DNA of 64,000 bases from Chitinophagales bacterium. GTDB taxonomy: Bacteria; Bacteroidota; Bacteroidia; Chitinophagales; Chitinophagaceae. The stretch is taken from contig JAATGJ010000168.1 in assembly GCA_015654695.1 (NCBI GenBank), positions 1-64,000 on the forward strand. Direction: 5' to 3'. A program made the translations under genes and the position numbers. The notes under the pieces were generated by a model, which did no database searches, was not told the origin of the DNA, and worked only from the letters and a program-made list of their open reading frames with translations. This document shows positions 1,145 to 22,768 of this stretch, piece after piece. Numbering within the stretch: the stretch's first letter is position 1; each line of letters starts with the position of its first letter.

Positions 1145-4100
1145 ATGGTACGTAATTTTACGTTTGCAGGATTTTTTAGGCAATGCTTGTTTTTAGTAAT
1201 TGCTGTAATGTCGTTTATCATTTCTTTCGCTCAATCAGATGTTACCAGGCCAACGGTAGTATCTGTTTCTCCAGGAAATTGGTCTATAACTATTAATTCC
1301 GGCGCAACTGTTTCCGCTGTATTCAGCGAAGCAATGAATGCTGCCACTATCAATGGAGCTACATTCGAGTTGCGTAATACATTTACTAATGCACTGATCA
1401 CTACTACTATTGGCTATAATAGTACTACAAGAACAGCAACATTATATCCAACAACGCCACTTACCACTGCGTTTGTTTATACTGCAAAGATCAAAGGCGG
1501 CACTTCCGGGGTAAAAGACGTAGCTGGCAATGCCATGCTAAATGATTATACATGGTCTTTTATTGTGATCCCTCTTGTTGACCTTACTACGCCAACTGTA
1601 CTATCTGTTTCACCGTCAAATGGGGCTACGGGAGTGAGCCGGAATACGGCCGTTACAGCAGTTCTTAGTGAACTATTGATGCCTTCCAGCGTAAGCGCAT
1701 CAACTGTTGAATTGCGTAATGCAGCCAATGCACTGATACCAACTACGATCACTCATGACGTAGCTAACCGCATAATTAAATTAACTCCTTCAGCCACTCT
1801 TGCCAGTTCTACTCTTTACAGAGCAACGATCAAAGGAGGTAGCTCCGGGGTAAAAGATGCATCGGGTAATCCTTTATCAGCTAATTATACATGGTCATTC
1901 ACCACCGGGACTACAAGCGATGTTACGGCTCCGGCTGTGACCTCTGTTACGCCGGCAAACAATGCAACCGGTATATCGGTGAATGCGACTGTTTCAGCGG
2001 TATTCAGCGAACCGATGAATGCTTCTACCATGATCTCCAATACAGTTCAGTTACGTAATTCAGCCAATGTATCCATCGCTGCGGCCATTACTTTCAACGA
2101 TGCTACCAGGACAGTTACATTAATACCTTTAAGCCCTCTTACCAATTCAACTGTATATACTGCCACGATCACGGGCGGCTCTGCGGGAGTAAAAGATGCT
2201 GCGGGAAATGCATTGCCGGGTAATTATGTATGGTCATTCACTACTATTGCTCCCCCGGATCTTACAGCGCCAACTGTAACGACAGTCGCACCGGTAAACG
2301 GTGCAACTGGTGTAGCTGTTACTACAACAGTTTCAGCGGTTTTTAATGAAACTATCAGTGCATCCACCATAAACAATTCAACATTCCAATTACGTAATCC
2401 TGCAAACACATTGATCACGGCTACGGTTACTTATAATGCATCCACTAATACAGCTACATTAACGCCATCAGCTTCGCTGGCTAATTCAACAGTATATACC
2501 GCCACGATAACAGGCGGCGCTGCAGGAGTAAAAGATGCTGCAGGAAATTCTTTGGCAAATAATTTTGTATGGTCATTCACTACAGCCACCCCACCCGATG
2601 TCACACGGCCAACAGTATCGTACGTGGCGCCTTCCAACGGAACAAACGGCGTATCGCTTAATACTACCGTTGTGGCAGGTTTCAGTGAAGCAATGAATGC
2701 TTCTACTATCAACACTACTACGGTTCAATTGCGCAATTCAGCTAATGTGGTGGTTGCAGCATCAGTTACTTATAATGCCTCTGCTAATACAGTTACGTTA
2801 ACACCTTCCGCCGCATTGGTTAATTCAACTTTATACACTGCAACGATCACAGGCGGATCTGCAGGTGTAAAAGACGCCGCAGGTAATGCTCTCCTCAATA
2901 ACTATACCTGGTCGTTTACTGCTGTTTCGGACAATATTAGCCCAACGGTAATGTCTGTTACACCCGTAACGGGCACTAATAATGTAAGCATCAGCACGCC
3001 TGTTTCAGCAGTGTTCAGCGAAACCATGAATGCCTCCACTATCATTGCTTCTGCATTCGAAATGCGCAATACTGTCAATAATACAGTAATACCGGTTTCT
3101 GTTACATATAATACTTCAACAAATACTGCAACATTAACTTATACCGGCTCTCTTAATTATTCAATTACATATACAGCTACTGTGAAAGGTGGTGCATCGG
3201 GCGTGAAAGATGCAGCAGGGAACCCCCTGTTAAATGATTATACATGGGCATTTATTACTGTACCTCCCCCTGCTGATGTTACACCACCTTCAGTAACGTC
3301 TGTTACGCCGGTAAATGGTGCAACTGGTATAGCTGTTAATACTGCTGTTTCAGCCATATTCAATGAAGCGATGAATGCTTCTACAATAAGCGCTGCAACG
3401 GTTCAATTACGTAATGCATCTAATGTGGCTATTCCTGCCACTGTTGCTTATAATGCTACTACAAGGACAGTTACATTAACACCTTCAGCAGCTCTTGCTA
3501 ATTCGGCTACATATACTGCCACGATTACAGGCGGCGCTGCAGGAGTAAAAGATGCTGCAGGAAATTCTTTGGCAAATAATTTTGTATGGTCATTCACTAC
3601 CGCTCTGGATATTACAGCGCCCACTGTAACGTCCGTTGCACCTGTAAATGGTGCAACCGGGGTAGCTGTTACCACAACTCTTTCAGCAATCTTCAGTGAA
3701 GCTCTTAATGCAACTACAGTAAGCAGTTCAACTTTCCAATTACGTAACGCTGCAAATTCTTTGATTACAGGTACAGTTACCTATAATGCATTAACCAATA
3801 CAGTCATATTAACGCCATCAGCCCCGCTGGCTTATTCAACAGTATATACCGCCACTGTATCAGGAGGTGTATCGGGTATTAAGGATGTTGCGGGAAATGC
3901 TTTGGCAAGTAATTATGTATGGTCATTTACTACAGCCCCTCCTCCGGATGTTACGGCTCCAACTGTAACTTCAGTCGTGCCGGTAAATGGCGCAAACGGT
4001 GTAGCTGTTACTACAAGTGTGTATGCAGCGTTTAGTGAAGCGATAAACGAAACTACCATCAATGCGTCAACATTTCAGTTACGCAACGCCGCTAATGTAG

Positions 4101-7100
4101 TGGTGAACGCAACGCTTTCCTACGATGCTATCAGCAAAATTGCAGTATTAACCCCAACGGCTGCGCTTAGCGGCTCGACAGTATATACGGCTACTGTAAC
4201 AGGTAGTACAGAAGGTGTTAAAGATCTTGCGGGCAATGCTCTGGCAAGTAATTATGTATGGTCATTCACTACAGCAGATGTTGCACCTCCGGCTGTCACG
4301 TCTGTGACACCGGTAACTGGCACAAGCGGGGTAGCTGTTGCTACAACTGTTTCAGCGATCTTTAATGAAGCTCTTAATGCAACAACCATAAGCAGTTCAA
4401 CATTCCAGCTGCATAATGCCGCAAATACATTGATCGCAGCTACGGTTACATATAATGCTTCAACTAATACAGCTACATTGACGCCATTAACTTCCCTGGC
4501 TAATTCAACAGCATATACCGCTACGATTACGGGCGGAGCGCCTGGTGTAAAGGATCAGTCTGGTAATGCCCTTGTAAATGATTACACATGGACATTTACA
4601 ACTGATGGAGTTCCACCTGTTTCTATATTTAAGCCAACGGATGTGCCTGTAGTACCCCTTACTATTGACCAGGCGATTGAAGTAGGGACTAAATTCCGGA
4701 CAACGAAAAATGGAGTTGTTACAGGTTTCCGTTTTTATAAAGGAGCCGGGAATGCAGGAACACATACAGGCCATCTCTGGAGTAGTGATGGGGCATTGCT
4801 TGCTGAAGCCACCTTTGTTAATGAAACAGCTTCCGGCTGGCAGCAGGTATTACTTGCTACGCCGGTTGCCATCAGTACAGGTAATACATATATTGTATCC
4901 TACTTTAGCAGTTCTGGTAATTACGCTTATACATACTCTTACTTTACCTCGGCAGTAGTAAATGGCCCCCTGCGTGCATTGGCTGATGGCGAAGACGGTG
5001 GTAATGGTTTGTACATCTATACAGCATCAGCAGCTTTACCCACTAATTCTCTTTTATCATCTAACTACTTTGCGGATGTTGTGTTTGTGGCAAATTCAGG
5101 GCCTGATGTTACCGCACCGTCGGTTACATCTGTTACACCGGCTAATTTGGCAACAACTGTAAATAGCATTACTACAGTTACCGGTATTTTTAATGAAGAT
5201 ATAAATACATCTACTATCAGCAATTCGACATTTGAGTTGCGTAATGCTTCTAATGCACTTGTTGCAGCAACGGTAACTTATAATTCAGCAAATAATACAG
5301 CTACATTAACGCCTTCTTCCGCCCTTGCTGCTTCTGCAGTATATACGGCAAAGATCAAAGGCGGGGCTTCTGGTGTGAAGGATCAGGCAGGTAATGCAAT
5401 GGTAAGCGATTACACATGGACATTTACAACCGCCGGAGCCGCAACTGTTTCTATCTTCCAACCCACAGATTTACCAACAATTCCTTTTATTGTTGATCAA
5501 CCCGTTGAAGTAGGGACTAAATTCCGGTCAACACAAAAAGGTTTTGTTACAGGCTTCCGTTTTTATAAAGGAACAGGTAATACAGGTACGCATACCGGGC
5601 ATCTTTGGAGCAGTACTGGTGCACAACTGGCTGAAGCTACTTTTATCAATGAAACGGCTTCCGGCTGGCAGCAGGTACAGCTTGCTAATCCTGTCGCTAT
5701 CACTTCCGGTATAACTTATATAGTGTCTTACTTCAGCAGTGCCGGCAATTATTCTTATACAAATAATTATTTTGCTTCAGCGGTTGTGAATGGTCCGCTG
5801 CGCGGATTAGCTGATGGTGAAGACGGAAGTAACGGGTTATACAATTATACTCCTTCACCGTCTTTCCCTGTCAATTCTCATTTATCATCTAACTACTGGG
5901 TAGATATTGTATTTGCACCAAGCACAGATCCGGATGTTACAGCCCCTGTAGTTACCACTGTTACACCGGTTAATGCGGCAACAAATGTAAATACCAATAC
6001 GGCTGTTACAGGCGTATTCAGCGAGGCTGTCAATGCATCAACCGTTAACAGTTCAACAGTTGAATTGCGTAATGCTTCCAATACACTGGTTGCAGCAACA
6101 ATAGCTTATAATGCTTCAACCAATACAGTGACATTAACGCCTTCTTCTGCCCTTGCTGCTTCTGCAGTATATACAGCAAAAATTAAAGGCGGCGTGTCGG
6201 GTGTGAAAGATGTGGCGGGTAATGCATTAGCAAACGATTATGCCTGGTCGTTTACAACTGTTGCAGTTGCAACTGTTTCTATTTTCAAGCCAACAGATGT
6301 ACCCACAGTTCCCCTTGCTGTTGATCAGCCGATTGAAGTAGGGACTAAATTCCGGTCAACACAAAACGGGTTTGTTACAGGTTTCCGTTTTTATAAAGGA
6401 GCAGGCAATGCAGGTACGCATACTGGTCATCTTTGGAGCAGTACTGGCACACAACTGGCGGAAGCCACGTTTATCAATGAAACGGCTTCCGGCTGGCAGC
6501 AGGTGCAGCTTGCTAATCCTGTCGCTATCACTTCCGGTATAACTTATATAGTGTCTTACTTCAGCAGTGCCGGCAATTATTCTTATACCAATAATTACTT
6601 TGGTACAGCGGTTGTAAATGATCCGCTGCGCGGATTAGCTGATGGTGAAGACGGAAGTAACGGAGTATACAATTATGCTTCCTCACCGTCTTTCCCCACT
6701 CAATCTCATTTATCATCTAACTACTGGGTAGATATTGTATTTACACCCAGTACAGGTCCTGATGCTACTGCACCGGTAGTATTAAGTGTAACACCGGTTA
6801 ATAACGCAACGAATGTTAATATCAATACAGTTGTTACAGGAGTATTCAGTGAGCCTGTCAATGCATCTACCGTAAACAGTTCGACGGTGGAATTGCGTAA
6901 TGCTTCCAATACACTGGTTGCAGCAACGATAACTTATAATTCTGCAAGCAATACAGTTACATTAACGCCTTCTTCTGCTCTTGCTTCATCTGCGGTATAT
7001 ACCGCCAGGATCAAAGGCGGCATATCCGGAGTAAAAGATGTGGCGGGTAATGCATTAGTAAATGATTATACATGGACGTTCACTACTACCAGTGAACCGT

Positions 7101-9214
7101 TACTGGCGCCAACAGAAGGCCCCGGCGGGCCGATCCTGGTGATCAGCAGTACAACTAATCCATTCAGCCGTTATGCCGTGGAGATACTCAGGGCAGAGGG
7201 TCTGAATGAGTTCGCTGCATCAGATATTTCAACCATTACTGCTACGGTATTGAATAATTACGATGTAGTGGTACTTGGAGAAATGACAGTAACAGCCGCG
7301 CAGGTGACGATGCTGACCAATTGGGTGAATGCGGGTGGTACATTGATCGCATTTAAACCCGGTTCATTATTGAACTCTTTAATGGGGATATCCGCTGCAA
7401 CAGGTACACTCACCGATAAATACCTGCTGGTCAATACATCATCAGGGCCCGGAGCAGGTATAGTGAACCAAACTATGCAATTTCACGGTACGGCTAACCT
7501 GCACACATTAAGCGGAGCAACAAGTTTAGCTACACTTTATTCTGCAGCATCTACCGCAACTGCTAACCCGGCTGTAACAACAAGGACAGTAGGGACAAAC
7601 GGTGGAAGAGCTATTGCATTTACGTATGATCTTGCAAAATCAATCATCTATACAAGACAGGGTAATCCTGCATGGGCGGGTCAGAAAAGAGATGGACAGC
7701 CCGAAGTGATACGTTCCGATGATATGTTTTATGGAGGCACCTCCTCACCTGACTGGATAGACTTTAATAAGATTGCTATCCCGCAGGCGGATGAACAGCA
7801 ACGTTTACTGGCGAATATTATTCTTCAAAGCAATCTTCACCGTAAACCATTACCACGCTTCTGGTATCTGCCAAGAGATCTCAAGGCTGCTATCGTAATG
7901 ACAGGGGATGACCATGGTGCGAACGGAACGGTTGGCAGGTTTAATCACCACCGTACACTCGGCCCCAATACAGCGCAGGATATTGCTGACTGGAAGGCGG
8001 TAAGAAGCACTTCTTATGTTTATCCGAATACACCTATTACCAATGCGGAAGCGGTTTCATTAGAAGCCCAGGGATTCGAGCTGGCGTTGCACCCTACTAC
8101 AAATTGTGTGGATTATACGTTAGCTTCTTTGCAAAACACTTTCACTACTCAGCTTGCCCAGTTTGAAAATGCTTATCCTGGCGTCACGGTTCCGGTTACC
8201 AACAGGACTCACTGCCTTGCATGGAGTGACTGGTCATCTACGCCGAAAGTTGAATTACAGCATGGCATACGCCTTGACGTTACTTATTATTACTGGCCTG
8301 AAGTATGGATGCAGAACCGTCCTGGTATGTTTACCGGATCGGGTATGCCCATGCGATTCGCCGATCTTGATGGTTCCCTTATTGATGTTTACCAGGCGCC
8401 ATCGCAAATGACGGATGAAACCAATATGAATTATACTGCTTTTTGCAATGCGGTTCTTGATAAAGCGGTTGGCTCAGAAGGATATTATGGCGTATTTACC
8501 GCTAATATGCATACGGACCAAACCTCATCAACTGCAGCCTCAGATGCCATCATAGCTTCTGCACAGGCCAGGCAGGTGCCGGTTATATCAGCAAAGCAAA
8601 TGCTTACCTGGTTAGATGGCAGGAACAATTCTTCTTTTGGTAATATGACCTGGAACAATAACCAGCTTACTTTTTCAGTAACAGTACGCAACGGTGCAAA
8701 TAGTATTAAGGCTATGCTGCCGTTCTTCGCTGAATCAGGTCAACTGGTTTCCATTACCCGCAATGGCAGCCCGGTTAGTTTTACTACACAAACGATCAAA
8801 GGGATGCAATATGGATTCTTTGCGCCTGTTGCGGGCACAAACACTTATGTGGCTAACTATAGTGTTATGACCAGGGTAGCAGCTCCTCCTCCTGCTGTAG
8901 TAACAGCACAAACTGAGCAAATAGCCTCAGTAGAAAAAGTAAAGGAAGAAAAATCAATACAGCCTGGTAAATTATATGTCAACGTAATGCCTAACCCAAG
9001 TACCAGCTATTTCAACATGGTCATTAACAGTAATGATGAAAACCCTGTAACGGTAAGAGTGATGGATATTTCCGGAAGGGTGATTGAAACGCATGAAAAA
9101 ATAGCATACTCGGGTATTTTGAAATTAGGTCAATTATGGAAAGCCGGCAGTTACTTTGCTGAAGTGATACAGGGTGAGCAGAGAAAAGTGGTAAAGCTCA
9201 TCAAAGCAAATTAG
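1145..9214 (+). CDS. Giant T9SS-secreted Ig-like/DUF4082 protein with GATase1-like and polysaccharide-deacetylase-like domains
   Basis: A 2689-residue secreted protein. A signal peptide ends near residue 30 (ISFAQ). Ten SbsA-type (Big_5) Ig-like domains of about 112 residues follow (residues ~32-1157), each opening with a D-[VLI]-T-x-P-x-V-x-S-V-x-P pattern. Next come three DUF4082 domains (~1158-1318, ~1434-1596, ~1710-1871), each followed by one more Ig-like domain, giving 13 in all. From about 1993 there is a GATase1-like Rossmann region (GGPILVISS), then a NodB-like polysaccharide-deacetylase segment with MTGDDH (D2255, D2256, H2257) and ALHP (H2316). A type A T9SS sorting domain starts near 2609. 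DUF4082 and Ig-like stalks suggest a cell-surface or secreted carbohydrate-active protein. The substrate is not visible, and deacetylase activity is an inference from the motifs. Both this gene and the paralogue at 9508 start with MVR, which supports the chosen start. Confidence 0.85.
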   Translation: MVRNFTFAGFFRQCLFLVIAVMSFIISFAQSDVTRPTVVSVSPGNWSITINSGATVSAVFSEAMNAATINGATFELRNTFTNALITTTIGYNSTTRTATLYPTTPLTTAFVYTAKIKGGTSGVKDVAGNAMLNDYTWSFIVIPLVDLTTPTVLSVSPSNGATGVSRNTAVTAVLSELLMPSSVSASTVELRNAANALIPTTITHDVANRIIKLTPSATLASSTLYRATIKGGSSGVKDASGNPLSANYTWSFTTGTTSDVTAPAVTSVTPANNATGISVNATVSAVFSEPMNASTMISNTVQLRNSANVSIAAAITFNDATRTVTLIPLSPLTNSTVYTATITGGSAGVKDAAGNALPGNYVWSFTTIAPPDLTAPTVTTVAPVNGATGVAVTTTVSAVFNETISASTINNSTFQLRNPANTLITATVTYNASTNTATLTPSASLANSTVYTATITGGAAGVKDAAGNSLANNFVWSFTTATPPDVTRPTVSYVAPSNGTNGVSLNTTVVAGFSEAMNASTINTTTVQLRNSANVVVAASVTYNASANTVTLTPSAALVNSTLYTATITGGSAGVKDAAGNALLNNYTWSFTAVSDNISPTVMSVTPVTGTNNVSISTPVSAVFSETMNASTIIASAFEMRNTVNNTVIPVSVTYNTSTNTATLTYTGSLNYSITYTATVKGGASGVKDAAGNPLLNDYTWAFITVPPPADVTPPSVTSVTPVNGATGIAVNTAVSAIFNEAMNASTISAATVQLRNASNVAIPATVAYNATTRTVTLTPSAALANSATYTATITGGAAGVKDAAGNSLANNFVWSFTTALDITAPTVTSVAPVNGATGVAVTTTLSAIFSEALNATTVSSSTFQLRNAANSLITGTVTYNALTNTVILTPSAPLAYSTVYTATVSGGVSGIKDVAGNALASNYVWSFTTAPPPDVTAPTVTSVVPVNGANGVAVTTSVYAAFSEAINETTINASTFQLRNAANVVVNATLSYDAISKIAVLTPTAALSGSTVYTATVTGSTEGVKDLAGNALASNYVWSFTTADVAPPAVTSVTPVTGTSGVAVATTVSAIFNEALNATTISSSTFQLHNAANTLIAATVTYNASTNTATLTPLTSLANSTAYTATITGGAPGVKDQSGNALVNDYTWTFTTDGVPPVSIFKPTDVPVVPLTIDQAIEVGTKFRTTKNGVVTGFRFYKGAGNAGTHTGHLWSSDGALLAEATFVNETASGWQQVLLATPVAISTGNTYIVSYFSSSGNYAYTYSYFTSAVVNGPLRALADGEDGGNGLYIYTASAALPTNSLLSSNYFADVVFVANSGPDVTAPSVTSVTPANLATTVNSITTVTGIFNEDINTSTISNSTFELRNASNALVAATVTYNSANNTATLTPSSALAASAVYTAKIKGGASGVKDQAGNAMVSDYTWTFTTAGAATVSIFQPTDLPTIPFIVDQPVEVGTKFRSTQKGFVTGFRFYKGTGNTGTHTGHLWSSTGAQLAEATFINETASGWQQVQLANPVAITSGITYIVSYFSSAGNYSYTNNYFASAVVNGPLRGLADGEDGSNGLYNYTPSPSFPVNSHLSSNYWVDIVFAPSTDPDVTAPVVTTVTPVNAATNVNTNTAVTGVFSEAVNASTVNSSTVELRNASNTLVAATIAYNASTNTVTLTPSSALAASAVYTAKIKGGVSGVKDVAGNALANDYAWSFTTVAVATVSIFKPTDVPTVPLAVDQPIEVGTKFRSTQNGFVTGFRFYKGAGNAGTHTGHLWSSTGTQLAEATFINETASGWQQVQLANPVAITSGITYIVSYFSSAGNYSYTNNYFGTAVVNDPLRGLADGEDGSNGVYNYASSPSFPTQSHLSSNYWVDIVFTPSTGPDATAPVVLSVTPVNNATNVNINTVVTGVFSEPVNASTVNSSTVELRNASNTLVAATITYNSASNTVTLTPSSALASSAVYTARIKGGISGVKDVAGNALVNDYTWTFTTTSEPLLAPTEGPGGPILVISSTTNPFSRYAVEILRAEGLNEFAASDISTITATVLNNYDVVVLGEMTVTAAQVTMLTNWVNAGGTLIAFKPGSLLNSLMGISAATGTLTDKYLLVNTSSGPGAGIVNQTMQFHGTANLHTLSGATSLATLYSAASTATANPAVTTRTVGTNGGRAIAFTYDLAKSIIYTRQGNPAWAGQKRDGQPEVIRSDDMFYGGTSSPDWIDFNKIAIPQADEQQRLLANIILQSNLHRKPLPRFWYLPRDLKAAIVMTGDDHGANGTVGRFNHHRTLGPNTAQDIADWKAVRSTSYVYPNTPITNAEAVSLEAQGFELALHPTTNCVDYTLASLQNTFTTQLAQFENAYPGVTVPVTNRTHCLAWSDWSSTPKVELQHGIRLDVTYYYWPEVWMQNRPGMFTGSGMPMRFADLDGSLIDVYQAPSQMTDETNMNYTAFCNAVLDKAVGSEGYYGVFTANMHTDQTSSTAASDAIIASAQARQVPVISAKQMLTWLDGRNNSSFGNMTWNNNQLTFSVTVRNGANSIKAMLPFFAESGQLVSITRNGSPVSFTTQTIKGMQYGFFAPVAGTNTYVANYSVMTRVAAPPPAVVTAQTEQIASVEKVKEEKSIQPGKLYVNVMPNPSTSYFNMVINSNDENPVTVRVMDISGRVIETHEKIAYSGILKLGQLWKAGSYFAEVIQGEQRKVVKLIKAN
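4619..7102 (+). repeat. Three tandem 828-bp units (DUF4082 + Ig-like) inside the giant gene
   Basis: Equivalent bases of the three DUF4082 openings fall at 4623, 5451 and 6279, exactly 828 bp apart. The Ig-like openings at 5105, 5933 and 6761 are also exactly 828 bp apart. Each unit is 276 codons with no net indel, and units two and three share long identical stretches, for example around 5690-5760 and 6520-6590. This points to recent tandem duplication or ongoing gene conversion. Confidence 0.9.
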
Positions 9215-17766: not shown

Positions 17767-17795
17767 AAAAAGCTGCTTCTTTGAAGCGGCTTTTT
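17767..17795 (+). terminator. Intrinsic terminator of the bacilliredoxin gene
   Basis: AAAAAGCTGCTTC (17767-17779) and GAAGCGGCTTTTT (17783-17795) form a 13-bp stem (one G-T pair) with a TTT loop, ending in five T bases. Confidence 0.85.
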
Positions 17796-17967: not shown

Positions 17968-19434
17968 ATGAAAATAAACGTTAGCCGTATCGGCCTCAGG
18001 ATGAACCCGGATTATAAAAAAGTAATTCCCCGGTTTTTTAATAGCGGAATCGAACGTTCAAGAATACTTATTGAAAGGGTATTGAATTTGCCCGAGCAGG
18101 AAGCTGGGGAGCTATTAAACCAGGTACTCGCTGAATTCTCGCCCCGTTATCGTGACATCAAATCAATCTTTGTCAAACATTTTGAATTGATACGGTACTT
18201 ATTGCTGGACACTGAACAGCAACATTTATCAGAAGTAAATAAATTACTGCTGGGTTCTTATTTTACTATGGAATATTCTCTTGAAGCAGCAGCACTCTTC
18301 AATCCTTCTATTGTAGAAGACCCTGACCAGTCAGGTGCCGCTAACGGAAAGAAAAAAGTGATTATCAGTTTCAGGGCAACCGGAGAAAGTCATATTTCTT
18401 CACTGGTTTTCAAAAGGGCCACGCTTGACGAGAAGGGAAATATCATTTTTGAACCTTCCGGAAAATTTATTGGTGAAGGAGTGCTCACGGAAAAGAGCAA
18501 GATCAACAAAGAAGGCTTTGAAACAATGTTGTCGCAATTATCATTGCCCTCTGAAATACGCCGCCAGATCCTCGAACAGTTGAATGACCCCTTCTATTAT
18601 AAGGAGATCGAAATGGTATTGAAAAGCGCTTTACAGCCCATAGAATCCCCTATAGAAAGAAAGCGATTGAAATATGAGATACTTGATGTGGTGAATACGA
18701 ATTATGAATTGCGTTTCTCTCCTGAGTCACATGTATCAGAAAGAGTCATCTTTCCTGTTACCTATGCTGAAAAAAATGGTATAGAAGATGCAAGATTTGT
18801 ACGGTTCACGTCAGAGAACGGTACTGTGCGGTATGCAGCCACTTATACGGCTTACGACGGATTGACCATACGTCCACACCTGATCGAAACAAAGGATTTT
18901 TTATTTTTCAAAGTATCCCCCTTACATGGGAAGGCGGCTATCAATAAGAACCTGGCGCTGTTTCCCAGGAAGATCAATGGTCAGTATGTGATGGTCTCCC
19001 GTATAGATGGATTCAATAATTATATTATGTTTTCCGATGATCTCTACTTGTGGGAAGATGCGGAACTATGGCAACAACCCAAATATCCCTGGGAGTTTGT
19101 CCAGATTGGTAACGGGGGTTCCCCCATTGAAACAGGAAAAGGCTGGCTCGTTATTACACATGGCGTTGGACCTATGCGTACATATTGTCTTGGCGCCAGT
19201 TTATTTGACCTGGATGATCCCCGTAAAGAACTGGGCCGGTTAAAAGAACCATTACTAATACCTAATGAAGACGAAAGACACGGTTATGTGCCTAACGTAG
19301 TATATACCTGTGGATCTATGATCCATGGAGATAAATTATTTCTTCCCTATGCGGTATCTGATCATGCGTCATCGTTCGCTACGATTCCCTTAGCTGAATT
19401 GCTGGATGAGCTACTGGGAACTGCCGGTACCTGA
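17968..19434 (+). CDS. Glycoside hydrolase family 130 protein (mannoside phosphorylase/hydrolase type)
   Basis: 488 residues. The N-terminal ~150 residues are helical and precede a five-bladed beta-propeller core of the GH130 family: VTYAEKNGIEDARFVRFTSE, KNLALFPRKINGQYVMVSRI with IDG, a blade with QIGNGGSPIETGKGWLVITH, and the closing DERHGYVPNVVYTCG near residue 435. GH130 enzymes phosphorolyse or hydrolyse beta-mannosides (beta-1,4-Man-Glc, beta-1,2-mannobiose/oligomannan). Lack of a signal peptide makes it cytoplasmic. It is longer than the shortest characterised GH130 phosphorylases because of the N-terminal helical part. It faces a GT operon on the other strand (gap 17 bp), the only evidence for its pathway. 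Phosphorylase or hydrolase cannot be decided by eye. Confidence 0.9.
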   Translation: MKINVSRIGLRMNPDYKKVIPRFFNSGIERSRILIERVLNLPEQEAGELLNQVLAEFSPRYRDIKSIFVKHFELIRYLLLDTEQQHLSEVNKLLLGSYFTMEYSLEAAALFNPSIVEDPDQSGAANGKKKVIISFRATGESHISSLVFKRATLDEKGNIIFEPSGKFIGEGVLTEKSKINKEGFETMLSQLSLPSEIRRQILEQLNDPFYYKEIEMVLKSALQPIESPIERKRLKYEILDVVNTNYELRFSPESHVSERVIFPVTYAEKNGIEDARFVRFTSENGTVRYAATYTAYDGLTIRPHLIETKDFLFFKVSPLHGKAAINKNLALFPRKINGQYVMVSRIDGFNNYIMFSDDLYLWEDAELWQQPKYPWEFVQIGNGGSPIETGKGWLVITHGVGPMRTYCLGASLFDLDDPRKELGRLKEPLLIPNEDERHGYVPNVVYTCGSMIHGDKLFLPYAVSDHASSFATIPLAELLDELLGTAGT

Positions 19435-19451
19435 AAGGTTCCTTTTGCAGA

Positions 19452-20465
19452 TTAATAAGATCGGCTTATTATTTTTTCATACAGTTTCATATAATGCAGG
19501 GCCATAGGCTGGCTGCTGAATTTAGCCATAGCATGATCGCGGCAATCTTGTCTGCAGATACGATCTGATCTATTAATAACATCAATAGCTTCTTCCGTAT
19601 TCCTTACTAAAAAACCCGTCCTGCCATCCAGTATCAGTTCTTTCATCGAGCCGCGGTCAAATGCTACCACGGGTGTACCACATAACATCGCTTCCACAAC
19701 GCTTAATCCAAATGGTTCTTCAAAGCTGATAGGATGTAATAATGCAGTTGCAGCTCCCATTAATGTATTGCGTTGTACAGGGTCAATATTGCCTTTATAA
19801 ATAATATTGCTGTCATTCAGATAAGGTTTTACTTTCTCATCAAAATAATCCTGGTCCTGTACCAGCCCGCATAAGATCAGTTTTTTATTTGCCTGCATAG
19901 CGATCTGTATCGCTTCATAAGCTCCTTTATGAGGATGTATCCTGCCGAAATATAAGAGATAATCTCCGTCTCCATCGCCTGGTTGGAACTGTGTTTCATC
20001 TACGCCATTATAAACTGTATCAAGGTATTTTAATGAAGGATGCCGGTCGCTGTTACTGATAGAAATATAATGTGAATGAGCGTTATATTTTTTATAGACG
20101 GGGATAATTTGTTCTGAAGAAAACCCATGGATGGTAGTGATCATCGGGCAGGGAATCAGCTTTGTATAAGTAAGAGGTAAAAAATCAAAATGATTGTGAA
20201 TGATATCAAAGAAACCCGCCTGTTCCACGAGATGGGAAATATGGAGACATTCCAGGACTTTCATGTCGCCACCGGATTCACCCACCGGGCTCTCACAAAC
20301 AGATTGGAGACGGGCACTGGTAATAGAATCCGCAGTTGCAAATAATGTTACATCCAGGCCATTCTTTACCAAAGCTTCTGTTAGTACAGAAGCAACCTGT
20401 TCCCATGGTCCATAGTGCCTGGGCGGTGTTCGCCAGGTGATGGGCGCCAGTATAGCTATTTTCAT
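19452..20465 (-). CDS. GT4-type glycosyltransferase
   Basis: 337 residues with two Rossmann-like halves of the GT-B fold. The N-terminal half opens with ILAPITWRTPPRHYGPWEQV and contains DIIHNHFDFLPL. The C-terminal half has LYFGRIHPHKGAYEAIQIA and the nucleotide-sugar site EPFGLSVVEAMLCGTPVV (E-x7-E motif), then DGRTGFLV. These are hallmarks of retaining GT4 enzymes using a nucleotide-activated sugar. It has no signal peptide or membrane helix, so it is cytoplasmic or peripheral. It is the last gene of the operon: its ATG overlaps the stop of the preceding gene by 4 bp (20462-20465), indicating translational coupling. Donor and acceptor are unknown; the GH130 gene alongside hints at mannose chemistry. 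Confidence 0.9.
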   Translation of the reverse strand: MKIAILAPITWRTPPRHYGPWEQVASVLTEALVKNGLDVTLFATADSITSARLQSVCESPVGESGGDMKVLECLHISHLVEQAGFFDIIHNHFDFLPLTYTKLIPCPMITTIHGFSSEQIIPVYKKYNAHSHYISISNSDRHPSLKYLDTVYNGVDETQFQPGDGDGDYLLYFGRIHPHKGAYEAIQIAMQANKKLILCGLVQDQDYFDEKVKPYLNDSNIIYKGNIDPVQRNTLMGAATALLHPISFEEPFGLSVVEAMLCGTPVVAFDRGSMKELILDGRTGFLVRNTEEAIDVINRSDRICRQDCRDHAMAKFSSQPMALHYMKLYEKIISRSY

Positions 20466-21550
20466 TTGTTCAATACATCAGCTACCGCAAAATGCGAGAT
20501 CCAGTAAGACAAAGTGCTTTCTGCTCCCTTGTTATGATTGATGCCTTCCGCCTGCAATCCATCAGCGCAGCCCCCTGTTTCAGGATCATACAACGACAAG
20601 TCAAGATCATTGGCACCAAGAAACCATTGATAACTGTTGTTCATCCGTGATAAGTATTTTCTATCCTGAAAGAGTTTCCATGCCTGTTGGTAATACAGCA
20701 CCATGGCCATAGCATCAATTCCCTGCTGATCAAATTGCGCAGCTTGACCTCCGCGGGGCAACCATCCCTGGTTACCGATTGGTCTCAGCATATTTTCATG
20801 AAATACTTTTGATTCAAGAAAAGACATGGATTCTTTTGCAATGGAGACATATATCTCATCACCTGTCAGTTCATAAGCATGTAATAACCCCAATGGTAAC
20901 ATGGCATTATCATAAGCCAATACCGGCTCGAACCAATGCCAGTTTTCTTTTTTATTATCCCGGTACATCCTCACCATTTTATTGGCAAGGCGAACGACTT
21001 TTTCTTTAGCCAGGTCGTCGGGATAATTACCTTTAATGAATTGACAAAGCCCAATGATTGAACTGGCAATACCCCTCACGGTAACCAGGTAATCAACAGT
21101 GTGGGAAACGTTTGCAAAAATTTCTTTTCCGGCTTTTACTAATAAAGGAGAATAACCTTCATTCACCAGATAGCCTAACGCCATCAGCGTTCTTCCAAAA
21201 GAATCTTCCGATCCGTTCTTTTCAGGGCACACCTTAGTGTAGTACATGAAATTCCTGACCCCCCCATTCTCTGTTTGCATATAATTAATAAAACTCAGAT
21301 ATACAGGAAGCAACCTGCGTGCCGTCAGGTTATTCTTATCTTTTCCGGCCCACACCATTAATAGCAATGCTCTTGAGTTATCATCAATGCAATAACCTTC
21401 TTTTAAATTCGGCATATCATACAATGCATGCTGAATGATGCCGGTAGTATCAGTCAGGTTGCTGATATGTGTGAAGTTAATGTCCGGAAGATCTGTATTG
21501 ATCAAAAGACCGGGTTTTGAATAGACGAGTATATCTTCTTCTGTTTCCAT
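20462..21550 (-). CDS. Alpha/alpha-barrel-like protein of GT clusters (glycosidase-like, function unknown)
   Basis: 362 residues, mostly helical. It opens with LPDINFTHISNLTDTTGIIQ, then GYCIDDNSRALLLMV; a similar H-x-x-x-x-T-D-x-T-G...GYC-x-DDN-x-RAL pattern is found as a C-terminal module in some GT4 proteins of other bacteria. Repeated helix pairs, WHWFEPVLAYDNAMLPLGLL, and NQGWLPRGG with FDQQGIDAMAMVL suggest an (alpha/alpha)6 toroid like those of glycoside hydrolases and lyases that act on sugars. The acidic DDN and the paired aromatic residues would suit a carbohydrate site, but no reaction can be assigned. It lies between two GTs, coupled to the downstream one by an ATGA overlap and separated by 18 bp from the upstream one. 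Confidence 0.7.
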   Translation of the reverse strand: METEEDILVYSKPGLLINTDLPDINFTHISNLTDTTGIIQHALYDMPNLKEGYCIDDNSRALLLMVWAGKDKNNLTARRLLPVYLSFINYMQTENGGVRNFMYYTKVCPEKNGSEDSFGRTLMALGYLVNEGYSPLLVKAGKEIFANVSHTVDYLVTVRGIASSIIGLCQFIKGNYPDDLAKEKVVRLANKMVRMYRDNKKENWHWFEPVLAYDNAMLPLGLLHAYELTGDEIYVSIAKESMSFLESKVFHENMLRPIGNQGWLPRGGQAAQFDQQGIDAMAMVLYYQQAWKLFQDRKYLSRMNNSYQWFLGANDLDLSLYDPETGGCADGLQAEGINHNKGAESTLSYWISHFAVADVLNK

Positions 21551-21568
21551 AAAAAATAATTATAATGG

Positions 21569-22768
21569 TCAACTGGTAAATTGATTGGACAATGCAGGCC
21601 TGGCGATAGGGGTTTTTGTAACCTCACCGAATAAACGGGCATGCTTCCCCGCTACTTTCTCCCATGTCGTATTTCTTGTTTTCAGATATGCATTATGTCC
21701 CATTTGTTTCCTCTGCGCATCATTTTGTAAAAGATGAATAGCCTGTTCCGCCAGTTCTTTTTCATCATTTGTCTTCAGGATGATGCCCGTTTGTTCATCC
21801 AGCATTTCTTTGGCAAGTACAAATGAATTGGAAATGATGGGGCAACCAGCGCTCATGGCGTATAAGAATGTGCCGCTTACAGCCTGGTCAGGGTCTTTTG
21901 ATGTGAACAGGTAGATATCGGTCAGTGTTAAATATTCCATTAGCTTTTGAGTGGTCATGTACCCATTGATAAGCCGTACGTTTTTCTGCAAGCCATTTTC
22001 CGCAATCAATTGCTGTAGGTAATCACGGTATTTTTCACCTTCCTGTACTATCAGGTTGGGGTGTGTTTGTCCCAGTACGAGATAGATGGCCTCCGGAAAT
22101 TTTTCACTGATCGTCTTCATAGCAAGAATCGCTTTTTCCACACCTTTATTCGGACTTAATAATCCAAAGTTGGTTAGCACAAGGCGATTGTCAAGGTCAT
22201 GCTGATGTTTTAACGTCAATGGATCAATGGTGCTATGATTATGTGTGCCATGAGGAATACGAAGAATTTTTTTTACCGGTATATGGTAATCATTTTCCAG
22301 TAATGATGCAGAATGATTAGTCATTACAATCACTTTATCTGCCAATGAACTTATGGTCTGAACCATTTTCAATCTTTTGGGAGAAGGTTCCGGCAACACC
22401 GTATGAAAACGAATAATAAATGGTTTTTCAAGCATTGATAAAAACCCAAGTAAATATTCGCCTAATTCACCCCCAAATAATCCAAATTCATGCTCGATAC
22501 AAATGAGTTTGATAGATTCATCGTGGTTGATCCTGACTGCGGTCTCCATGCAGGAATCTATTTCATGACTATCCATCACCATCGTAACGGGCTGATCATA
22601 TAACCGGGCAGCGCTTTTTTTATCCAGTGCGCAAACAGTAATGATTGTTTCATTCTTTATTTCCTGGCTGATGGCATTGATCAGGTCCTGTGTAAAACTG
22701 GCAATCCCGCATTTCCGCGGAGGAAATGTGCTGATAAAAAGAACAGACGAGTGCTGATGTGATGTCAT
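21569..22768 (-). CDS. GT4-type glycosyltransferase (first gene of the operon)
   Basis: 399 residues of GT-B type. The N-terminus FISTFPPRKCGIASFTQDLI is the glycine-containing nucleotide-sugar transferase opening. The C-terminal domain has LTNFGLLSPNKGVEKAILAM, and the active-site region reads DPDQAVSGTFLYAMSAGCPI. Here the usual E-x7-E is replaced by a Q-x-x-SGT-x-x-YA pattern, seen in one GT4 branch. There is no signal peptide. It begins the three-gene minus-strand operon; its promoter must lie in the 468-bp gap shared with lgt. Donor and acceptor are not visible. Confidence 0.85.
   Translation of the reverse strand: MTSHQHSSVLFISTFPPRKCGIASFTQDLINAISQEIKNETIITVCALDKKSAARLYDQPVTMVMDSHEIDSCMETAVRINHDESIKLICIEHEFGLFGGELGEYLLGFLSMLEKPFIIRFHTVLPEPSPKRLKMVQTISSLADKVIVMTNHSASLLENDYHIPVKKILRIPHGTHNHSTIDPLTLKHQHDLDNRLVLTNFGLLSPNKGVEKAILAMKTISEKFPEAIYLVLGQTHPNLIVQEGEKYRDYLQQLIAENGLQKNVRLINGYMTTQKLMEYLTLTDIYLFTSKDPDQAVSGTFLYAMSAGCPIISNSFVLAKEMLDEQTGIILKTNDEKELAEQAIHLLQNDAQRKQMGHNAYLKTRNTTWEKVAGKHARLFGEVTKTPIARPALSNQFTS

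Follow-up and report, generated by a model that had tools for sequence, protein, structure and literature searches.

A conserved gene set of two GT4 glycosyltransferases, an (alpha/alpha)6-barrel protein and a long GH130 protein, possibly acting on a mannose-containing glycan

The gene set and its conservation

The window analysed here, that is the whole stretch of 64,000 nucleotides from contig JAATGJ010000168.1 of a Chitinophagales bacterium (assembly GCA_015654695.1, a 5.4 Mb draft genome), holds a set of four genes at positions 17968-22768, for which the closest named relatives are Chitinophaga. A 488-residue GH130 protein, below called the long GH130, is encoded at 17968..19434 on the + strand. 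It is opposed to three genes on the - strand, encoding a GT4 glycosyltransferase of 399 residues (GT399, 21569..22768), an (alpha/alpha)6-barrel protein of 362 residues (HEL, 20462..21550) and a second GT4 glycosyltransferase of 337 residues (GT337, 19452..20465). GT399 and HEL are spaced by 18 bp, the reading frames of HEL and GT337 share 4 bp (20462-20465), and the stops of the convergent GT337 and GH130 genes lie 17 bp apart (19435-19451). This layout, a GH130 gene facing a tight GT4/helical protein/GT4 operon, had been put forward in an original prediction made from the sequence, and both the open reading frames (ORFs) and the sequence agree with it. All four genes were taken from the ORF list. 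The assignments were made from sequence, Pfam and a fold model for the long GH130, from Pfam and the nearest solved relative (TeGSS, 7fg9) for GT337, from a fold model and the GYC-x-DDN-x-RAL signature (EGYCIDDNSRALL, residues 51-63) for HEL, and from Pfam and homology to HEL-fused GT domains for GT399. By eye, no obvious signal peptide was seen at the N-terminus of any of the four proteins. Each frame has homologues in tens of genomes, so the observation is not due to chance.

Conservation was evaluated on two samples. One was a survey of 247 genomes of the window's phylum, taken as Bacteroidota. HEL matches were found in 60 of these and were called strong at 90 bits or more (46 genomes) and weak in the remaining 14; out of 31 genomes matching GT337, 17 did so strongly (E<1e-110). 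The long GH130 was searched for with its N-terminus (residues 1-248) and found in 36 genomes, every one of which has a HEL-family match (Fisher p=1.4e-27; all p-values given here take genomes as independent, ignoring relatedness). HEL is strong in 29 of the 36 (p=1.7e-19) and only weak in seven, four of which (G019, G031, G120, G158) were confirmed by the HEL profile with E-values of 5e-26 to 8e-31, a confirmation that left out G062, G064 and G152. All 17 strong-GT337 genomes have a strong HEL (p=2.3e-14). Counted by distance, 20 of 38 long-GH130 places have a strong HEL no more than 8 kb away; one of 39 places, in G148 (E 5.7e-5), was omitted from this count. A GT4-HEL fusion is present in 28 of the 30 phylum loci listed, many of which also have homologues of GH130 and GT337 within 4 kb.

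The wider sample consisted of the best 80 of at least 591 confirmed HEL loci (at least 593 pattern matches of the HEL alignment against named genomes), and it leans to Bacteroidota. GT4 is fused to HEL in 67 of these loci and adjacent in 11; in the other two (L077, L109) the contig starts inside or just before the gene. The claim of the original prediction that the signature-bearing helical protein is fused to GT4 domains elsewhere is thereby borne out. The neighbourhood is also conserved across phyla, contrary to the first of its refuting conditions, a lack of conserved linkage: 78 of the 80 loci carry GT4 with HEL, and any GH130 is found within about 10 kb in 66. A second GT4, homologous to GT337, is present in 42 loci. 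A GH130 of at least 370 residues is present in 56, at a median distance of about 1 kb and opposed to HEL as in the window in 51 of them; one of the 56 (L103) is without the long-form signature. As to additional partners, neighbouring proteins were clustered at 60% mutual length without annotation, and no other cluster occurs in more than 11 of the 80 loci.

Among these best 80, HEL loci occur in Bacteroidota, Ignavibacteria, Balneolales, WOR-1, Aminicenantes, Acidobacteriota, Lentisphaeria, Thermoanaerobacter and other Bacillota, Dictyoglomaceae, Armatimonadota and Nomurabacteria, as well as in bins labelled Nanoarchaeota and Bathyarchaeota. Many of the genomes are metagenome-assembled, and isolated odd taxa may reflect binning errors. 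The four genes are a conserved, widely shared set; the single enzyme families are ordinary except for HEL, but the combination is not.

Several variants were observed. In L120 (6412-9745) GT4-HEL overlaps a 360-residue GH130 by 20 bp, this GH130 having His at the position of Gln379 of the long GH130 (see below), and the long GH130 of that genome lies more than 1 Mb from GT4-HEL. In L121 (7402-9540) a 712-residue ORF matching the GH130 profile adjoins a short GH130 and a GT337 homologue, with GT4-HEL on another contig. A PIG-L-type deacetylase (Pfam) directly follows GT4-HEL in a Nomurabacteria bin (L103, 6121-6744), and a protein of the same cluster does so in a Nanoarchaeota bin (L105, 3521-4099), which hints that this variant of the glycan contains an amino sugar.

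The four proteins

No fitting family model for HEL was found in Pfam or NCBIfam. Its Pfam matches, to GH88 and D-glucuronyl C5-epimerase, are borderline and cover partial stretches, with 26.4 bits for PF07470 (cut-off 26.6) and 23.7 bits over 35 residues for PF06662 (cut-off 23.3); at E<=1 the two families are matched by 37 and 18 of 46 HEL members, respectively. Since these matches are borderline and partial, an assignment of HEL as a GH88 enzyme or C5-epimerase was not adopted. The HEL model has a predicted local distance difference test (pLDDT) of 92.1 and a predicted template modelling score (pTM) of 0.91, and is an (alpha/alpha)6 barrel. The best solved match is 7tem, the protein YPO2471 (Z 38.8, root mean square deviation (rmsd) 2.5 over 332, 18% identity), followed by GH9-type enzymes, cellobiose 2-epimerases and GH76 alpha-mannanases, nearly tied at Z 30.7-29.6; MmpH is a further neighbour (Z 25.8, rmsd 2.7 over 285, 12% identity). 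Among the nearest solved proteins of known activity, (alpha/alpha) sugar enzymes predominate. YPO2471 has the DD, R, N, D-G and N-x-N-x-G-A-E-S residues in common with HEL, and the HEL family is very probably distantly related to it. YPO2471 is exported, by its title, whereas the HEL of the window has by eye no secretion-type N-terminus; a search by name found no paper on YPO2471.

Invariant in 46 HEL sequences are, among others, Asp56, Asp57, Arg60, Asn100, Asp116, Arg120, Arg159, Asp330, Asn340, Gly342 and Glu344. AGE and cellobiose 2-epimerases use two catalytic histidines. The only invariant histidine of HEL is His41, followed by His28 in 40/46, and no other column reaches 30/46; this single invariant histidine disfavours HEL as a 2-epimerase, although epimerases rank among the best fold neighbours. 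The adjacent Asp56-Asp57 can be set beside the D136/D137 pair of a GH76 alpha-1,6-mannanase, as named in PDB titles and not by residue-level structure alignment. The residues considered for the MmpH family are Asp47, Asp50 and Glu262. PMC9883506 names Asp50 and Asp47 of MmpH as acid candidates, the latter from the loop that joins the first two helices, and in the model Asp56 and Asp57 of HEL sit in the same loop by helix order.

A second form of HEL was found at L112-L118, with 419-441 residues in six loci and a longer ORF in L116. In L112-L115, L117 and L118 it has, by eye, a signal- or lipoprotein-type N-terminus and is accompanied by GH130s and genes for an ATP-binding cassette (ABC) importer. 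Pfam confirmed importer parts in L112, L113 and L115, and the other calls in L112-L118 are by eye and size. Most of these uptake-type loci have a gene of GH2 size, which in L113 is a GH2 with a mannosidase-type Ig domain (Pfam). The second form keeps Asp56, Asp57, Arg60, Asn100, Arg120, Asp330, Asn338, Asn340, Gly342 and Glu344 in 7/7 and is without the conserved Asp116, Arg159, Glu208 and Gln276. Glycan cleavage is the best explanation for a secreted HEL enzyme encoded in an uptake locus, and the acids common to both forms point to the same chemistry in the cytosolic one. The secreted relatives beside ABC importers and GH130s thus point to glycan cleavage as the role of HEL. These uptake-type loci (e.g. 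L113:2481-11471) pair the secreted-type HEL and ABC importer genes with both a short and a long GH130. L112 also carries a GH94-like gene, and in L116 no importer was found within the stretch examined.

The long GH130 matches PF04041 at residues 257-480 (E=1.5e-33, 116.6 bits against a cut-off of 26). Its model (pLDDT 89.5, pTM 0.85) is a full propeller with two helical insertions, and aligns with GH130 propellers along its whole length, beyond the Pfam match. The propeller fold and a sequence score over the curated cut-off place it in the GH130 family. For residue counts, 53 long forms were compared with 20 short ones, four of intermediate length being set aside; the 20 include one cut-short long form (L089:13224-14228) and several truncated ORFs. 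The first insertion (about residues 27-98, 18046..18261, + strand), taken from model secondary structure and alignment gaps, covers columns 60, 61 and 91-103, which are gapped in 19 of the 20 short GH130s, the exception being the cut-short long form. The second (about residues 180-242, 18505..18693, + strand), taken from the model and alignment gaps, covers columns 179-222, gapped in 18-19 of the 20.

The nearest folds are beta-1,2 enzymes at Z 36.8-35.3, among them 7fir (36.8, rmsd 1.7 over 282), 9gph (36.5, 1.8 over 284), 5b0q (36.5, 2.1 over 288) and Uhgb_MS (35.7, 2.0 over 286). Beta-1,4 phosphorylases come next (4kmi, Z 33.7, rmsd 2.5 over 294), and hydrolase-type GH130 entries score about 31-32 (31.9). 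GT108 matches at about 22 (22.4 at 13% identity), with the GDP-mannose-dependent MPT-2 at 21.8. A profile search gave the same order: 9fj8 (7.8e-45), 7fip (7.7e-42), Uhgb_MS, Lin0857, the beta-1,4 enzymes, and hydrolases last (1.6e-9 and weaker).

Asn112, Arg136, Glu273, Asp274, Arg276, Lys327, Arg345, Gly381, His398, Tyr406 and Asp465 are invariant in all 53 long forms. Two of these, Arg345 and His398, would belong to the basic phosphate site of phosphorylases. According to PMC4599007, in the numbering of BT3780, Asp142 is the catalytic-type Asp of GH130, Lys199 marks beta-1,2 specificity among proven enzymes, phosphorylases have three basic residues, and hydrolases have Glu227 and Glu268. 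Asp274 is the equivalent of Asp142, and Lys327 that of Lys199, the latter located by counting 57 residues on from Asp142 and matched by motif (CKSGSI to NKD/NKN), not by coordinates. In a gapless motif match Glu268 falls on Gly381, while Glu227 falls near Arg345-Ile346-Asp347, with the acidic Asp347 in 52/53. The Gly at the Glu268 position led us to reject a BT3780-type hydrolase. Glu140 and His142 are invariant in the long forms and otherwise found only in one cut-short long form; Arg404 is also invariant and occurs in one short form (L111). The long GH130 is thus predicted to be phosphorylase-like, with one basic position lost and no Glu268-type base. Both it and HEL have folds and conserved residues that fit glycan-active enzymes. 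At the Lys327 position, Arg is found in short GH130s from Bacteroidota loci, for example L037 and L058, so linkages may differ between lineages.

The genome of the window has three other GH130s: one beside SusD-like ORFs and ORFs resembling the major facilitator superfamily (MFS), one beside an epimerase-like ORF (both by eye), and one that is lipoprotein-type and close to BT3780. As these fit better the role of a simple GH130 of a mannan polysaccharide utilisation locus, that role was rejected for the long GH130.

Both GT4s match PF00534/PF13692 over cut-off (PF00534 E=6.7e-23 and 2.4e-21). GT337 aligns over its full length with TeGSS (E 1.7e-69), which according to PMC9909042 is a UDP-glucose:sucrose alpha-1,2-glucosyltransferase making 1,2-linked glucosylsucroses that accumulate in salt-stressed Nostoc. 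The positions of TeGSS Tyr18, Arg179, Lys184 and Glu256 are kept in GT337, but Trp10, which stacks on sucrose (PMC9909042), is replaced by Thr10, and the six neighbouring genes scanned in the window include no sucrose gene.

No PDB entry matches GT399 at E<=1e-10. The protein is homologous to the HEL-fused GT domains elsewhere and to the Thermoanaerobacter GT4 adjoining HEL. In a HEL tree of 74 rows, the HEL of the window groups with the main Bacteroidota HELs (support 100/91), whereas in the GT tree GT399 branches together with GT parts from L026 and L031 (100/100) and not within the clade (100/100) of GT parts fused to those main HELs. Deeper forks are weaker in a smaller HEL tree (91/90, 89/85). 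The conflicting trees suggest replacement of the GT4 partner in a Chitinophaga-like lineage, and GT4 and HEL seem to remain partners even when one is swapped.

The link to mannose and the proposed pathway

The Thermoanaerobacter loci L098 and L100 have the gene order GH130-GH130-nucleotidyltransferase-GT4-HEL, and the GH130 pair of L098 is almost identical, over full length, to 7fip and 9fj8. These are the enzymes of PMC4264767, so the Thermoanaerobacter GT4-HEL pair stands beside GH130s that match proven beta-1,2-mannoside phosphorylases. For strain X-514 that paper describes the proven activities of both GH130s, and it lists three further genes of the same cluster: 1787 for a mannose-1-phosphate guanylyltransferase, 1786 for a mannosyltransferase of GT4 type (by BLASTP) and 1785 for a hypothetical protein. 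From gene order and homology, compared via L098 and L100, HEL very probably corresponds to this hypothetical protein, Teth514_1785. The cluster (Teth514_1785-1796, PMC4264767) offers as points of likeness a GT4 next to HEL, GH130s and a mannose-1-phosphate guanylyltransferase. It differs in having two short, proven GH130 phosphorylases and an ABC importer; in the window there is a single long GH130 along with a second GT4, and a scan of six neighbours found no importer. Among the titles and abstract openings listed, we noticed no description of the gene set other than this cluster.

GMPP-like genes adjoin GT4-HEL in L098, L106, L108 and L110, phosphohexomutase genes lie near it in L104 and L108 (the latter best named PgmG, 492 against a cut-off of 600), and L104 has a mannose-6-phosphate isomerase cupin (PF01050, over cut-off). 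GT4-HEL thus appears together with genes of the GDP-mannose-supply type and with GH130s matching proven beta-1,2-mannoside phosphorylases, and the mannose connection, raised only as a possibility in the original prediction, has become firmer. The genome of the window encodes two GDP-mannose dehydratases over cut-off. It also has a GMPP-like gene in two complementary parts on contigs C11 and C164, both below the family cut-off and both with reading frames running off the ends of the fetched stretches; this split is probably an assembly break.

Two known systems are comparable. In the mycobacterial methylmannose polysaccharide (MMP) cluster (ManT, MmpH, methyltransferases; PMC9883506), a GDP-mannose glycosyltransferase makes mannan and an (alpha/alpha)6 endo-mannosidase cuts new primers. 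Its likeness to the window includes acidic residues located where the first barrel helix loops into the second, but MmpH is absent from the HEL sequence matches, and the window has a GH130 and a GT fused or coupled to the putative glycosidase. In Leishmania, GT108 proteins have a GH130-type propeller and act on mannogen, a beta-1,2-mannan reserve (PMC8950772). They match the long GH130 in fold, at 13-14% identity in structural alignment. To our knowledge, GT108 has no GT4 or HEL partner.

With moderate confidence, we read the gene set as a self-contained cytosolic module that may make and recycle a mannose-containing oligo- or polysaccharide. We infer four steps, given in falling confidence. 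GT399 would transfer mannose from GDP-mannose with retention, giving alpha-mannosides. HEL, as a glycoside hydrolase or transglycosidase, would trim or cleave the chain made by GT399, with its acid and base among Asp56/Asp57, Asp330 and Glu344, and this cutting would regenerate short primers, analogous to MmpH in the MMP cycle. The substrates of the long GH130 would be beta-(1,2-)mannosyl units, which it would most likely break down, giving mannose-1-phosphate or mannose that returns to GDP-mannose. GT337 would add, or start with, a different sugar, for which 1,2-linked glucose is a possible candidate. As a product, a storage compound or a solute protecting against stress may be considered. 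Such a scheme would work like the MMP cycle and share substrates with mannogen metabolism, being a member of neither.

A number of observations weigh against this reading. Because GT4s are retaining enzymes and the bonds on which GH130 works are beta, none of the enzymes here is known to form the bond that GH130 would split, unless GH130 runs in reverse. At the position of Arg194 of Teth514_1788, 52/53 long forms have Gln379 where 19/20 short GH130s have Arg or Lys, so phosphorolysis is not assured. TeGSS, the nearest solved relative of GT337, uses UDP-glucose. GMPP is the best NCBIfam match of the genes so named, yet they score below curated cut-offs (278.6, 303.1 and 300.7 against 440; 334.7 against 373), and the L104 mutase scores best as a phosphoglucosamine mutase (334 against 439). 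The linkage also has gaps. Fourteen of the 80 HEL loci are without GH130; several end shortly after HEL, but L047, L065, L085, L090, L104, L106 and L109 extend nearly 10 kb downstream. The long GH130 is missing from 17 of the 46 strong-HEL genomes, and some of these 17 (e.g. L018, L025, L027) carry a short GH130 beside HEL instead. Eight of the 38 long-GH130 places have no HEL within 8 kb, seven of them in one genus (g15; unlinked or on another contig) and one a second copy 52 kb off. Ten more have only a weak-scoring HEL relative, within 6 kb; of seven examined, six have ABC importer genes and a secretion-type HEL and look catabolic. GH130 homologues apart from GT partners, which would speak against the original prediction, thus exist in part, and its interpretation as a whole is partly supported.

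These catabolic-looking loci bring up salvage, whereby GH130 would split imported environmental beta-mannosides to mannose-1-phosphate and then GDP-mannose, which the GT4s merely spend. This is how the authors of PMC4264767 interpret the Thermoanaerobacter cluster; L098 does contain an ABC importer, and L112, L113, L114, L115, L117 and L118 unite a secretion-type HEL, ABC importer genes, GH130s and mostly a GH2-size gene. For the window we consider salvage rather unlikely: its HEL has by eye no secretion-type N-terminus and is coupled to a GT4, its genome has the three other GH130s (one beside the SusD-like and MFS-like ORFs), and with no cluster in more than 11 of the 80 loci (neighbours unannotated) no single importer family accompanies the set. 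The lacking beta bond could instead be supplied by the long GH130 itself, acting as a synthase or transferase that builds the beta-mannosyl part from mannose-1-phosphate, like Uhgb_MS, or from GDP-mannose, like GT108. Its odd donor site (Gln379, and Gly381 in place of the BT3780 base), the Glu140/His142 motif restricted to long-type sequences, Asp347, Arg404 and the fold matches to the mannoside synthase Uhgb_MS and to MPT-2 would agree with this. We nevertheless hold it to be doubtful, as Arg345, His398 and Lys327 are retained, GT108 is far in sequence, and the residue signature of the window's long GH130 recurs in those encoded at importer loci, for which degradation would be expected, a likeness that also tells against a dedicated make-and-recycle role. 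Quite improbable in our view is assembly of a surface polysaccharide or glycolipid, in which the two GT4s would make a lipid-linked or capsular unit edited by HEL and GH130. GT4s are common in such pathways, and many weak NCBIfam matches of the exopolysaccharide type were obtained, far below cut-off, but no further (unannotated) protein cluster exceeds 11 of the 80 loci, GH130 and HEL of the window lack a signal peptide by eye, and GT337 resembles a soluble-oligosaccharide synthase.

Extending the make-and-recycle reading, we tentatively suggest that the set might represent an undescribed counterpart of mannogen, widespread in bacteria and perhaps present in archaea too. A cytosolic mannan or manno-oligosaccharide derived from GDP-mannose would be made by a GT4 joined to an (alpha/alpha)6 glycosidase that resets chain length, the long GH130 with its changed donor site would recycle or elongate it, and other bacteria would scavenge the same glycan via a secreted-HEL/ABC/GH130 locus. 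If true, this would link an unnamed barrel family (in Bacteroidota, Bacillota, Dictyoglomota, Armatimonadota, Acidobacteriota and archaeal bins among the best 80 loci), a subfamily of long GH130s whose active site is unusual, and the puzzle from 2014 of beta-1,2-mannoside phosphorylases beside Thermoanaerobacter GDP-mannose genes with, by the account in PMC4264767, no known glycan source. It could reveal a common, overlooked bacterial reserve or protective sugar, and it makes clear enzyme tests possible.

The flanking region

The flanking genes scanned include Hsp20, a Disulph_isomer (BrxA/B-type) protein, Lgt and a sigma-70 factor (all Pfam), with no hint of a polysaccharide utilisation locus among them. 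A promoter scan gave no signal, with 14 found against 17.0 in shuffled sequence. Terminator-like sites numbered nine against 4.4 (standard deviation 2.4) in shuffles; none of them lies in the 17-bp gap between GH130 and GT337, and one, a hairpin of 13 pairs at 17767-17795, is located 3' of the BrxA/B-type gene and upstream of the GH130 gene. Elsewhere in the window, positions 1145-9214 encode a protein of 2689 residues with 13 Big_5 stretches, three DUF4082 stretches and a Por secretion tail.

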